A stretch of DNA of 64,000 bases from Pseudidiomarina tainanensis (GTDB lineage Bacteria > Pseudomonadota > Gammaproteobacteria > Enterobacterales > Alteromonadaceae): contig NZ_PIQJ01000001.1 in NCBI RefSeq assembly GCF_004214835.1, positions 186,001 through 250,000 on the forward strand, given 5' to 3'. The notes under the pieces were generated by a model that saw only the letters and a program-made list of their open reading frames with translations, had not been told where the DNA came from and made no database searches. How positions within the stretch are numbered: position 1 is the first letter of the stretch; each line of letters begins with the position of its first letter. Made by a program: the position numbers and the translations under genes. Positions 32,596 to 38,402 of the stretch are shown here, piece by piece.

Positions 32596-32646
32596 ATGGC
32601 GCACCCGACAGGAGTCGAACCTGTGACCTCTGCCTCCGGAGGGCAG
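32596..32646 (-). repeat. Partial tRNA-Arg(CCG) copy, probable distal attachment site
   Basis: 51 bases identical to 38325-38375, the 3' part of tRNA-Arg(CCG) from the anticodon arm to CCA. The copy lacks the 5' half of the tRNA and cannot fold into one, so it is not a gene. It marks the far end of an inserted segment. Confidence 0.85.
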
Positions 32647-33128
32647 TCACGGGTTCGGTGGTAAATCGTTAAAGCTAGGCGTGGTATGGGCTTAAACGGT
32701 GTTTAGGCTTTCTTTTTTGCGTCGGAATCGACACTTTTGAGACCGGTTAAGGACAAAATTGGTCACAGAAAACCGACTCCGAAATTTCAAATTTTGACCT
32801 TTGCCTCGCGACAAAAAATTCTGAACCTTCCGAAAAACTTGAGTTTTTAGGTGGAAAAAATTCCACCTTTTATCTGGACTTTGGGTACTTAGGGTGGTCT
32901 GTAATTTAATCATTTCAATATGAGGTACATGGTAATGAAAACCATAAAACTCGTGGCAATAAACGCGATCGCTTTGTTCCAAATATCGAGAACTTCAAAA
33001 CCAGCCGTCGGTACCAGGGGCTCAAGATGAAAGAGCTTCCTTAAGTTTGTTATAAGCTAGCCGGAGGCCGTGTCTGTGTGCGCATGGCGTTGGAAATTGG
33101 AGCGGCGAATCGCGAGAAATGACACTAA
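32647..33128. other. Island end, 482 bases without a credible gene
   Basis: AT-rich sequence next to the repeat. A 96-residue frame on the minus strand (32692-32982) has no ribosome binding site, domain or coding look. A hairpin AGGTGGAA/TTCCACCT (32849-32868) with a short T-run could be a weak terminator. No integrase fragment is recognised. Confidence 0.5.
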
Positions 33129-33629
33129 CTACTGTGACTTTTCCGGCAATTCGCCAATTTCAATGTAATCGTCGATTGTTTCATCGAAACAACTGCATGT
33201 CTTCTTTCCTGAGCTATTAGGGGGTGTCGAGCTTCCGTAATAACCCTTATCTAAGCAAATCTTCGCACATTGTTCGCTAAGCGTTTTGGGGCGAAGTTCG
33301 CCGCGTATTAAAAACAGGGTGACCGAAAGAGCCATAATGCCAGTGGCAGTAATAGAATAGATTAATCGAGTCTTGAAAGAAGAAGATCGGGTATTTTGCT
33401 TACAGCCGTGTTGAAATCCAGCATAAATTGTGAGTAACCAGACGCTCAGAAAAACAATGAGTGCAACAATACCAAGGAAATAATCTGACCAATCCGGCCA
33501 AGGATTGTCGCCATAAATAAAGAGCCAGAAAATACCAGCAAACAATGCGACAGTAGCCATAGCTGCAATAAACGCCACCACAAGACCGGGTAATCCGAAT
33601 AAAATTGCGTAACGATAAGTGGTTTTCAT
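33129..33629 (-). CDS. Hypothetical membrane protein inside the tRNA-Arg islet
   Basis: 166 residues: three hydrophobic segments (about 9-35, 48-70, 86-106) and a polar C-terminal tail with four cysteines (SEQCAKICLDKGYY and KKTCSCFDETIDD), a pattern suited to disulfides on the periplasmic side. No family recognised. It lies between the left repeat and the exporter operon, same strand, but separated by 258 bases, so it is probably transcribed separately. Function unknown. Confidence 0.55.
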   Translation of the reverse strand: MKTTYRYAILFGLPGLVVAFIAAMATVALFAGIFWLFIYGDNPWPDWSDYFLGIVALIVFLSVWLLTIYAGFQHGCKQNTRSSSFKTRLIYSITATGIMALSVTLFLIRGELRPKTLSEQCAKICLDKGYYGSSTPPNSSGKKTCSCFDETIDDYIEIGELPEKSQ

Positions 33630-33737
33630 GATTGTTGAGAGACCTAGTTTATTAGTCCTGAGCGCGCCATAACTTTAAATTTAGCTGGAAGGATACAAAC
33701 TATCCATGCAGGCAGTACCAAAGGCATCACGATAGCC

Positions 33738-33887
33738 TTAAATCCAAGCCACTAGGTCGCTATGATTCGTCACAAGCTGGGCCTGCATCTCATTTAGTTG
33801 TGCAATATTGGCATTCATAGGGTTAAGTAAACTTTCCTTGCACCAATAAGCTAGATTCTCGTCGCTGTCTGTTTTATTTTCAAACAC
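33738..33887 (-). CDS. 49-residue open frame directly after the exporter ATPase gene
   Basis: A GTG immediately follows the ATPase stop and opens a frame encoding VFENKTDSDENLAYWCKESL, then LNPMNANIAQLNEMQAQLV and a stop at 33738. Composition is protein-like and hydrophilic. There is no clear ribosome binding site apart from possible coupling to the ATPase stop. It may be a tiny gene of the operon or a leftover C-terminus. Family unknown. Confidence 0.35.
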   Translation of the reverse strand: MFENKTDSDENLAYWCKESLLNPMNANIAQLNEMQAQLVTNHSDLVAWI

Positions 33888-34598
33888 TTAATCAGGCAAC
33901 CGACCTTCACCGACCTCCTCAGTCGTGACGCCATCGCGAATGTGGTAAATGCGCTTGAAGGTGGGAATGATCTTTTCGTCATGAGTCACCACGATGATTG
34001 CGGTTTCAAATTTTTTTGCCATGTCATTCAAAATTCGAATAACCGCCATGGCACGCTCGGAGTCAAGAGGCGCTGTTGGTTCATCGGCGAGAATCACTGG
34101 CGGACGGTTAATTAACCCACGTGCTATGGCTACGCGCTGTTGCTCTCCGCCAGAGAGCTGCGACGGAAAAGCTTGCGCGCGGTGATGCACATCTAGTGCG
34201 GTTAGTAGTTCTAGCGCACGAGCGCGTGCTTCGGAATTGCTGACACCCGCTAACATTGGTAATAGCGCCACATTGTCTACGACATCTAAAAACGGGATGA
34301 GATAGGGTGATTGAAAGATGAACCCTATTTTATCGCGTCGCAGTGCCCGCAGGTCCGAGACTTTCCAGTCTTGCTCAAAAATGGTCTGCTCGCCCAGTGT
34401 CATTTTGCCTGAAGTTGGCGTAATCACTGCTCCAAGTGATTTCAGTAGGGTGCTTTTACCTGAGCCTGAAGGACCTATTAATCCAACAACTTCACCAGGA
34501 GCCACGTTCATGTTCACATCTTTGAGTGCATCAACGGCGGTATCACCACTGCCATAGCGTTTACTCAAATGCTCAATGCGTATTCCATGTTTCGACAT
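33888..34598 (-). CDS. ABC transporter ATP-binding protein (DevA/MacB/LolD-like)
   Basis: 236 residues from ATG 34598, with GGAGG five bases upstream. Walker [12 protein letters not shown]-loop FIFQSPYL, signature LSGGEQQR, Walker [13 protein letters not shown] and switch VVTHDEK are intact. This is the MacB/LolD type that works with FtsX-like permeases. It follows the permease by one base and is the last main gene of the TetR-adaptor-permease-ATPase operon, probably an exporter of a lipid, antibiotic or heterocyst-type glycolipid-like cargo. Cargo unknown. Confidence 0.9.
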
Positions 34599-34599
34599 A

Positions 34600-37557: not shown

Positions 37558-37574
37558 GACAGACTCAAAAGTAA

Positions 37575-37594
37575 GTAAGTTATTACTATCTTAC
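37575..37594. promoter_or_regulatory. Candidate TetR operator
   Basis: GTAAGTTATTACTATCTTAC: arms GTAAGTTA and TATCTTAC match as inverted repeats at 7 of 8 positions. It starts 18 bases upstream of the TetR start, where autorepression would act. Confidence 0.45.
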
Positions 37595-37624
37595 GCCTGC
37601 TGTTAACGCTGTCAATTATTTAGT

Positions 37625-37654
37625 AAAAAAAGCCCCCGCAGGTTGCAGGGGCTT
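37625..37654 (-). terminator. Rho-independent terminator on the minus strand
   Basis: Stem AAGCCCCTGCA/TGCGGGGGCTT (one mismatch, loop ACC in the minus-strand reading) followed by TTTTTT. It would end transcription coming from the scar region at 37655-38324, upstream of the TetR operon, although no intact gene remains there to use it. Confidence 0.7.
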
Positions 37655-38324
37655 AAAAATTTTCGTTTCCTTGTTATTCTGGACGGTCTTGCGCTCGGGC
37701 TTCTTAAAGTCCGAGCCGGCTTTCCATGCTGGCCAGTCAGGAGAGTAATCGTCACTGACTTTTTGACCGTTAACATCAGCTTGGGGAATTGACGCATCAC
37801 AGCTGGCAGAGCACACCTTCGCTCAAGGTCAGCTCGACTTGGTCATGGTCGGTCGTGCTCATCTAGCCAATCCGCACTGGCCCGATGAGGCCGCCATTGC
37901 CCTGTGCGTCAAAGAGCCTTCGTGGGTGTTGCCCGCGCAAGCCGCTGTATATATCTGCGCATGCCATCGAAGAACGGGTCAGCAATAAAACTGGGGAACG
38001 TAGCGGGTAATTCACTGGCAACTTCTTTCGCTGTCGCCAGAAAGTGCTCTCGACGTATCATACGACATTCGTACTTTCTTCCCCGGCTACCTTTGAGAGA
38101 CATGGTTAACTTTGTAACTACCCCCGACGAATTTATAACAGCGATGATTTCTCAATGGATTTCAGAATATTGTTTTCGGAAAACTCAGATGAATATACAT
38201 CAGGTTTTCCGGGGATACAGAGAGCTCGATATAATAATTGTTTAACTACAGATTAAGAGGGTTAAAAAATTTGGCACAAAAACTTTTTGGTTAGTGAACA
38301 CTTTCGGTGAAATATTTGAATTGT
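37655..38324. other. Island scar: no intact gene, several decayed frames
   Basis: 670 bases between the terminator and tRNA-Arg. It contains an Old Yellow Enzyme C-terminal remnant (separate entry). A minus-strand frame at 37660-37810 reads QADVNGQKVSDDYSPDWPAW and has no start and no stop before the terminator. A 64-residue minus-strand frame at 37909-38103 overlaps the remnant. The mixture suggests repeated insertions and deletions at this attachment site. Confidence 0.55.
37797..37988 (+). pseudogene. C-terminal remnant of an NADH:flavin oxidoreductase (Old Yellow Enzyme, NamA-like)
   Basis: The plus-strand frame reads SQLAEHTFAQGQLDLVMVGR and AHLANPHWPDEAAIALCVKE, then PSWVLPAQAA. This is the conserved end of Old Yellow Enzyme/NamA proteins (…DLVMVGRAHLANPHWP…PSWVLPAPY). 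Nothing of the ~300 upstream residues is present, there is no start codon, and homology fades after WVLPA before a stop at 37986-37988. A dead gene tail stranded next to tRNA-Arg. Confidence 0.75.
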
Positions 38325-38375
38325 ATGGCGCACCCGACAGGAGTCGAACCTGTGACCTCTGCCTCCGGAGGGCAG
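38325..38375 (-). repeat. Proximal attachment repeat within tRNA-Arg
   Basis: The 51 bases identical to 32596-32646, covering the tRNA-Arg 3' part. The two copies are 5,729 bases apart in direct orientation, the pattern left by site-specific integration at a tRNA 3' end. Confidence 0.85.
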
Positions 38376-38402
38376 CGCTCTATCCAGCTGAGCTACGGGT
38401 GC
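38326..38402 (-). tRNA. tRNA-Arg (anticodon CCG)
   Basis: A 77-base cloverleaf on the minus strand: acceptor GCACCCG pairing with CGGGTGC, D-arm AGCTCAGCTGGATAGAGC, anticodon stem CTGCC/GGCAG with loop CTCCGGA (anticodon CCG), T-arm ACAGG-TTCGACT-CCTGT and encoded CCA. It reads CGG codons. It is the insertion site of the 5.7-kb islet and remains complete. Confidence 0.97.

Follow-up and report, generated by a model that had tools for sequence, protein, structure and literature searches.

An integrase-less islet at tRNA-Arg in Pseudidiomarina tainanensis, a probable cassette of a multi-species array system

The 64,000-nucleotide stretch of the Pseudidiomarina tainanensis genome analysed here (the window) holds a 5.7-kb islet beside its sole tRNA gene, a tRNA-Arg(CCG) (Rfam, 67.8 bits). 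Rather than an isolated island in decay, the islet appears to be one unit of a cargo system shared among marine bacteria, in which cassettes with landing sites but lacking an enzyme accumulate behind a single tRNA gene. It is likely, in our judgement, to be a non-autonomous cassette that carries the attachment site of a mobile element (attP), belongs to an array system and is mobilised by a visiting tyrosine integrase of the Arm-DNA-bind_2 type. From attachment (att) cores, arms, tandem arrays, whole units shared between species, emptied sites and integrase-bearing islands at the same tRNA gene, all read from sequence, we infer that such an integrase would excise and reintegrate the islet. Confidence in the cassette reading comes mainly from the arrays, the arms and the shared units.

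Attachment cores, arms and genes of the islet

The islet is bounded by a direct repeat (32591-32646 and 38320-38375) of 56 nt, 98% identical with one mismatch and exact over 51 bases (32596-32646 and 38325-38375), a match judged to be far beyond chance. In a first-pass annotation of the sequence, a 51-base exact repeat of the tRNA 3' part was said to bound 5,729 bases containing a membrane protein and a TetR-adaptor-FtsX permease-ATPase operon, with no recombinase. Both copies and their start-to-start spacing of 5,729 bp were confirmed, and this account of the cargo was borne out by the open reading frames (ORFs), the family matches and a PF00589 scan. Relatives were compared in a sample of 26 Pseudidiomarina and Idiomarina genomes (the genus sample), in which G000 is the window's genome, G005 is I. 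loihiensis SN11, G021 is the metagenome-assembled genome (MAG) DAH.19 and G022 is P. sp. CB1. The attachment features are these:

38326..38402, minus strand: tRNA-Arg(CCG), the target gene, whose 3' part is the attachment core (Rfam)
38325..38375, minus strand: att core copy within the tRNA gene, 51 bp, anticodon stem to 3' end
32596..32646, minus strand: distal att core copy, 51 bp, identical
32647..32867, no strand assigned: A-type attP-like arm, closing with the palindrome GGTGGAAAAAATTCCACC (32850-32867), aligned with 25 other copies
32741..32768, plus strand: the arm's most conserved block GACCGGTTAAGGACAAAATTGGTCACAG, containing TTGGTCACA as putative arm-type site
32786..32807, plus strand: internal degenerate core, six mismatches to the 22-base core
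38270..38278, plus strand: putative arm-type site TTTGGCACA of the right (P'-like) arm, in single copy; many other arms have two or three
38290..38301, plus strand: GTTAGTGAACAC, an element recurring in the interval between arm site and core

Seen as a tRNA-targeted tyrosine-integrase element, the islet fits in its attP part, the core being the tRNA 3' part with predicted arm repeats on both sides, and its own integrase is absent. No recombinase or integrase occurs among the ORFs and family matches of the islet, and all four PF00589 matches in its own genome lie outside the window; an overlooked integrase is ruled out by these scans. Conjugation families are absent from the five cargo genes, and no gene of the type carried by integrative and conjugative elements (ICEs) or integrative and mobilisable elements (IMEs) was seen in the islet. 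Its genes and gene remnants are these (aa, amino acids):

33129..33629, minus strand: 166-aa membrane-like protein
33888..34610, minus strand: ABC transporter ATPase, LolD/MacB-like
34600..35805, minus strand: FtsX/MacB-type permease
35802..36953, minus strand: periplasmic adaptor, RND_mfp/HlyD type
36955..37557, minus strand: TetR-family regulator
37716..37934, plus strand: remnant of a gene with a 362-aa relative in G003 contig 12, oxidoreductase-like by eye only
37933..38112, minus strand: remnant of a HipA C-terminus, aa 352-436 of 436-aa relatives

All five genes, the membrane-like protein and the four-gene exporter operon, are on the minus strand. The 166-aa protein has no match in Pfam or NCBIfam and is 97.5% identical over 161 aa to a copy in G013, sited between the tRNA-Arg of that genome and its endonuclease/exonuclease/phosphatase gene. 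The HipA family was assigned by Pfam on another 436-aa array protein (G005). The conserved arm at the left copy, the arm remnant by the tRNA and the gene debris at the tRNA-proximal end were absent from the first-pass annotation.

Arrays, arms and shared units in related genomes

The locus order CydA-CydB-PepA-AmpH-tRNA-Arg-hotspot-endonuclease/exonuclease/phosphatase gene is found, partly or wholly, in most loci read, in a survey that hid matches below 35% identity for five common families. When the 26 genomes were searched with the islet DNA, its first 276-444 bp were found many times over. In all, 43 cores, some degenerate, lie outside tRNA genes in 17 of the 26 genomes, the window's included: eight in G005, five each in G003 and G006 and one to three in each of the remaining genomes, several arrays being broken off by draft contig ends. 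The G005 array comprises eight units over 81.5 kb from tRNA to last core, and the PF00589 scan gave no match inside it.

By a simple motif rule, 26 of 48 cores (the 43 of the genus and five from other genera) were assigned an A-type arm and ten a B-type arm, each with invariant blocks; those of the A arm include GACCGTTTAATGACAAAATTGGTCACAG and those of the B arm GAGGCCATTTAGCCAGA and GCAAAACTTGGCACA. The palindrome at 32850-32867, which might be a terminator or a junction site, closes the A arm in most copies, and beyond it the cargo diverges. In three relatives the true core continues at the position of the internal degenerate core, as if both had recombined. With at most two mismatches the A block occurs in 19 of 395 family genomes (13 of the 26 of the genus, six of the 369 others), and its backward control matched in one. 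It had no match in viral_contigs, the arm had none in plasmids and phages, and the left 449 bp, searched against a family sample of 147 genomes, gave outside the genus only core-length matches among the matches listed. An A-arm-like stretch was also seen near tRNA-Arg, on its 5' side, at L179 and L180 (G185 and G234).

At the right ends, at least one of TTGGCACA, GGTCCCA, TGTGGGAC and TTGTCAC is present in 29 of 67 (24 at tRNA genes and 43 in arrays; 56 are distinct and 11 rows repeat another row), the motifs having been chosen from the very ends in which they were then counted, and one motif-bearing end (G016 38828) perhaps being due to chance. TTGGCACA is present at 14 of the 67 ends, GGTCCCA at eight and TGTGGGAC at six, against 0.5, 0.3 and 0.1% of 4000 random windows. 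In six of the 43 cores the outermost ~20 bases, at the tRNA 3' end, are missing and different sequence adjoins (G004:C5:213249, G014:C2:432667, G014:C1:422048, G016:C3:38828, G002:C20:3422 and G013:C3:390996). It is possible that these are secondary insertion sites, which would place the crossover inside GAACCTGTGACCTCTGCCTC.

The window islet is not confined to its own genome. In a comparison of array DNA that reported matches of at least 600 bp only, it recurs core to core in G021 (C88, 8621-2951) as two matched parts, an initial one of 970 bp at 96.7% identity and one of 4,710 bp at 99.7%, separated by about 100 bp that G021 lacks. There it has different neighbours, and the tRNA-side unit of that array recurs in G008 and G022 at 97.5-97.7%. 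When the G000 and G021 islets were compared in detail, with only matches outside the operon reported, the initial ~250 aligned positions had 27 mismatches, of which three fall within the core and another three immediately beyond its edge; the ~360 positions that follow had 5. Since the arm region differs so much more than the adjoining stretch, the arms seem to have been exchanged. The same array comparison gave no stretch of at least 600 bp common to the islet and the integrase-bearing islands of G022, G004 and G016.

A second unit, with metal-efflux genes, is present in six genomes at 96.2-99.96% identity over the 15 pairs. It is the first unit after the tRNA in G008, G020 and G003 and the second in G005 and G006. 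When its tRNA-side flanks were compared in 13 pairs, seven were 67-76% identical over 0.4-3.9 kb and four were non-aligning in the stretches compared; the others, G008/G022 (93%) and G004/G020 (97%), are close relatives.

The first-pass annotation had taken the repeat as the footprint of site-specific integration. The comparison with relatives that it proposed was run, and emptied and differently occupied sites lend support to that claim. In G024 the next gene lies 0.67 kb from the tRNA and a TGTGGGAC arm remnant persists beside it, so this site has been emptied and is not pristine. G025 and G005 form an empty-site pair: the sequence directly after the tRNA core of G025 matches that past the last core of G005 at 99.3% identity. 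Of the 700 bp compared, the match covers the initial 146 bp and then ends, and it is exact at the core.

The cargo of other units is varied. By eye, that of G005 includes UvrD-type helicases, a cellulose synthase cluster, two heavy-metal RND systems, AbiEi/AbiEii, HipBA and Fic, with catalase-like and glutamyltransferase-like genes; Pfam confirmed one each of AbiEii, Fic, HipA, helix-turn-helix (HTH) antitoxin, UvrD and RND. The gene nearest to the 25 A-arm copies of the genus belongs to AbiE or Fic in 12, is a shortened AbiEi in three and is neither in ten (one of them at a contig end), representatives having been tested by Pfam and the remainder assigned by likeness. The window islet is among the ten.

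A pattern scan of a species-genome collection gave 23 stretches. Their hosts are Pseudidiomarina species and Idiomarina loihiensis SN11 and, outside the genus sample, Arsukibacterium perlucidum, Alteromonas alba, a Kangiellaceae MAG and a Rheinheimera MAG. In these four other taxa (L104, L105, L109 and L119) an att core with an A arm stands beside a gene for a 158-aa protein, in sequence that is 98-99.9% identical between taxa. An exporter operon of the window's type is also present in L104 and L119, and in L109 a Tn3-type transposase comes next (by eye). The 158-aa gene has its counterpart in the window, just outside the islet:

31958..32595, plus strand: segment with a 158-aa gene (32112-32588)

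This segment is 92% identical to a stretch beside the att core and arm in the Rheinheimera MAG (L119), and its 158-aa gene is found in L104, L105 and L109 as well. L182 and L183 also belong with this set of 158-aa gene, att core and A arm.

A candidate integrase and its arm sites

The candidate mover is an integrase of 395-398 aa with the domains Arm-DNA-bind_2 and Phage_integrase. In three of the 26 genus genomes it lies near tRNA-Arg, at 1.7 kb (G022), 1.9 kb (G004) and 13.6 kb (G016). Larger islands with an integrase, which the first-pass annotation had suggested looking for, are thus present at the same tRNA gene, with like arm repeats. The right arm by the G022 integrase has TTTGGCACA repeats and GTTAGTG, both of which are also in the window islet. 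Two genes downstream of this integrase (1667998-1668402 in G022) is a 134-aa protein that might be an excisionase, its match to HTH_17 being borderline (27.1 bits against a cut-off of 27). Of the 26 genomes, 22 gave no relative of the integrase at 50% identity or above; in G013 there is one at 55%, on a different contig. Among the 17 genomes with array cores, 13 have no such family member. In other genera nine relatives, at 69-75% identity, were found, each no more than about 15 kb away from a tRNA-Arg core. The integrase-bearing block of G022 (C1:1672178-1682058) also holds a SIR2 protein with matches to Dsr1 defence models, as well as two large proteins that match tyrosine recombinases weakly; this might be a gamma-mobile-trio set.

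Two other assignments were tried and dropped. The A arm was considered as the G022 integrase's own, the far core of its 45-kb block having an A arm; that end proved to match a metal-efflux unit together with one further unit, which G008 also has. A mover of the large serine recombinase type was rejected, because PF07508 occurs in just one of the 26 genus genomes (G023) and there lies more than 130 kb away from the array cores; no search was made for PF00239, the family of small resolvases.

By eye, the integrase islands have two or three short repeats, ~10 bp apart, ahead of the core; Tandem Repeats Finder reported none of those of L158. The integrase was found at E <= 1e-60 in 63 of the 395 family genomes. 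Twenty loci were taken up, of which 16 were compared together with two G069 islands; with G277 left out this gave 17 islands, and the right arm was read for 14 of them (all but G013, G052 and G339). At islands of other genera (L158-L160, L163, L164 and L166, in G126, G035, G104, G326, G207 and G308) a second, partial copy of tRNA-Arg was seen ~50-60 bp past the 5' end of the whole gene.

The arm repeats were compared with the arm-binding domains. The integrases of G004 (C9:36244-37431) and G022 (C1:1666493-1667689) are 98% identical outside the first 60 residues and 63% inside, and the repeats beside them are GGTCCCA and GGCACA respectively, which looks like an exchange of the arm-binding domain. 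G126 and G207 (91% outside the arm domain, 95% inside) have repeats that are nearly common to both; those of G016 and G126 (91% outside, 77% inside) differ. It was predicted beforehand that the repeats of G330 and G250 would be like those of G016 and that those of G219 would be unlike those of G326. The differences per repeat of 8 bases were 0.33 for G330 and 1.33 for G250 against G016, and 2.33 for G219 against G326; in G250, two of the three repeats are TTTGTCACA. Twelve integrase pairs are at least 88% identical outside the arm domain. In the five whose arm domains are 95-98% identical, 0.33-1.67 of 8 site bases differ, and in the seven whose arm domains are 63-78% identical, 2.67-3.67. For the 14 islands, which are related and not independent, the partial correlation of site distance with distance in the arm domain, controlling for the remainder of the protein, is 0.37, a value that 5 of 5000 permutations reach; it is 0.32 (24 of 5000) when repeats may be matched in any order.

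Mechanism, rival explanations and known systems

On the reading that the islet is a non-autonomous attP cassette, an island with an Arm-DNA-bind_2 tyrosine integrase (of the P. sp. CB1, G022, type) would enter the cell, and its integrase would bind the arms of the cassette and excise it as a circle. The circle would reintegrate at tRNA-Arg or at any array core, the tRNA 3' end being restored each time, and homologous recombination between repeated arms would afterwards shuffle arms and cargo. The cargo varies by cassette: in the window a TetR-type regulator and an ABC exporter, in others metal efflux, toxin-antitoxin or defence genes. The present mobility of the window cassette may be weak, since its right arm has kept a single repeat where many others show two or three.

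Several observations weigh against this reading. Twelve of the 48 cores match neither arm rule; they include A-like cores with an altered or deleted motif, three that run on at the internal degenerate core and some in which no arm can be made out. At 38 of the 67 right ends all four arm motifs are missing, and the window islet holds one right-arm repeat only. The left-arm site of the A type, TTGGTCACA, is nearly constant whereas the right-arm repeats vary. Units combine left and right arms of differing types, which makes it probable that many of them are composites. In the arrays read, no A-arm unit comes with an integrase gene of its own, and the A arm is therefore linked to the G022-type integrase only via the shared core and right arm. 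The correlation between arm domain and arm site is moderate, among related islands. Transfer could also have been effected in part by homologous recombination of chromosomal DNA.

An ordinary tRNA-borne genomic island whose integrase was lost by deletion and which is now fixed, the arrays being graveyards of such islands, is in our view quite unlikely. It would account for the gene debris at the tRNA-proximal end, for the single arm repeat left and for the 13 of 17 core-holding genomes without a family integrase at 50% identity or more. However, the islet recurs in G021 core to core, without an integrase and among other neighbours, and six genomes share the metal-efflux unit at 96.2-99.96% identity while the backbone around it is for the most part 67-76% identical or non-aligning. 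Units that recur over a divergent backbone have moved after, or without, integrase loss. Of the two origins offered by the first-pass annotation, deletion of the integrase or movement in trans, the second is thus the better supported, because the islet recurs att to att, 17 of 26 genomes hold cores and integrase islands with like arm repeats lie at the same tRNA. Deletion may have occurred in an ancestor, but the nameable part of the debris is HipA and oxidoreductase-like fragments, with no integrase.

Homologous recombination between repeated arms or cores after uptake of chromosomal DNA, with no integrase involved, is an unlikely sole cause of the changes in the arrays, although it also seems to reshape them. 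The different arm alleles of the G000 and G021 islets and the mixture of left and right arm types agree with it. At most junctions, however, the right-arm side shares little past the core, several cores border other sequence with breakpoints within the core, and the G025/G005 comparison is exact at the core. That the repeat is a by-product of duplication or decay of the tRNA gene, with no link to mobility, is scarcely credible. The left copy is indeed a partial tRNA sequence, but a conserved non-tRNA arm adjoins such copies in dozens of places and they bound units common to several species; this alternative was ruled out by the conserved arm beside the copies and the shared units.

Integrons also hold arrays of cassettes that carry no recombinase, toxin-antitoxin genes included. 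Unlike in integrons, the repeated site here is part of a tRNA gene with flanking arms, and there is no PF00589 gene (intI) in the G005 array or the window. The staphylococcal cassette chromosome (SCC) and pseudo-SCC composites have tandem att repeats and elements without recombinase, with serine recombinases and a different target. A literature search found nothing on Idiomarina genomic islands at tRNA-Arg, on Pseudidiomarina integrases in connection with tRNA, or under the description of integrase-less genomic islands with an attachment site. The nearest published kinds are the cis-mobilisable elements (CIMEs) and the ssrA islands of Dehalococcoides. In the portions of the accounts covered, CIMEs of streptococcal ICE/IME families are att-flanked, lack integrase and transfer genes, lie in tandem behind the 3' end of the target gene and are described as decayed ICEs or IMEs, forming composites of two or three elements in S. 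salivarius (PMC5704250, PMC7563491). Like CIMEs, the islet keeps att sites on both sides (the 51-bp cores and arms) and has no integration, excision or conjugation genes. It differs from CIMEs, as far as these are covered, in that arrays reach eight units, that 13 of 17 core-holding genomes have no family integrase, that the islet has no ICE/IME-type gene and that single units are shared between species. CIMEs move in cis by accretion with a helper; here the shared single units suggest that a unit may move alone. The ssrA islands, in the part of the account covered, are likewise tandem and bounded by RNA-gene repeats, and 15 of them without an integration module were suggested to be CIMEs (PMC3146451). 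Their target is tmRNA and their enzyme a CcrB-like serine recombinase, and no family of att arms, such as is described here, appears in that account as far as covered (PMC3146451).

More tentatively, and with considerable doubt, it might be that an ordinary tRNA att site serves the genus, and less so neighbouring genera, as the base of an integron-like pool of cassettes. These cassettes would never need an integrase of their own; toxin-antitoxin genes by the arm would hold them, and successive visiting integrases with swapped arm-binding domains, to which exchangeable arm sites correspond, would move them. The arm repeats would serve as address labels that determine the integrase by which a given cassette can be moved.

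If the cassette reading is true, an apparently lone and scarred island would be a unit of a cassette economy shared by several species, and island finders keyed to integrases would overlook such cassettes. The arrays would offer a natural data set for relating the arm-binding specificity of integrases to the sequence of the arms. They would also be an instance of non-autonomous att cassettes being more numerous than the elements able to move them.

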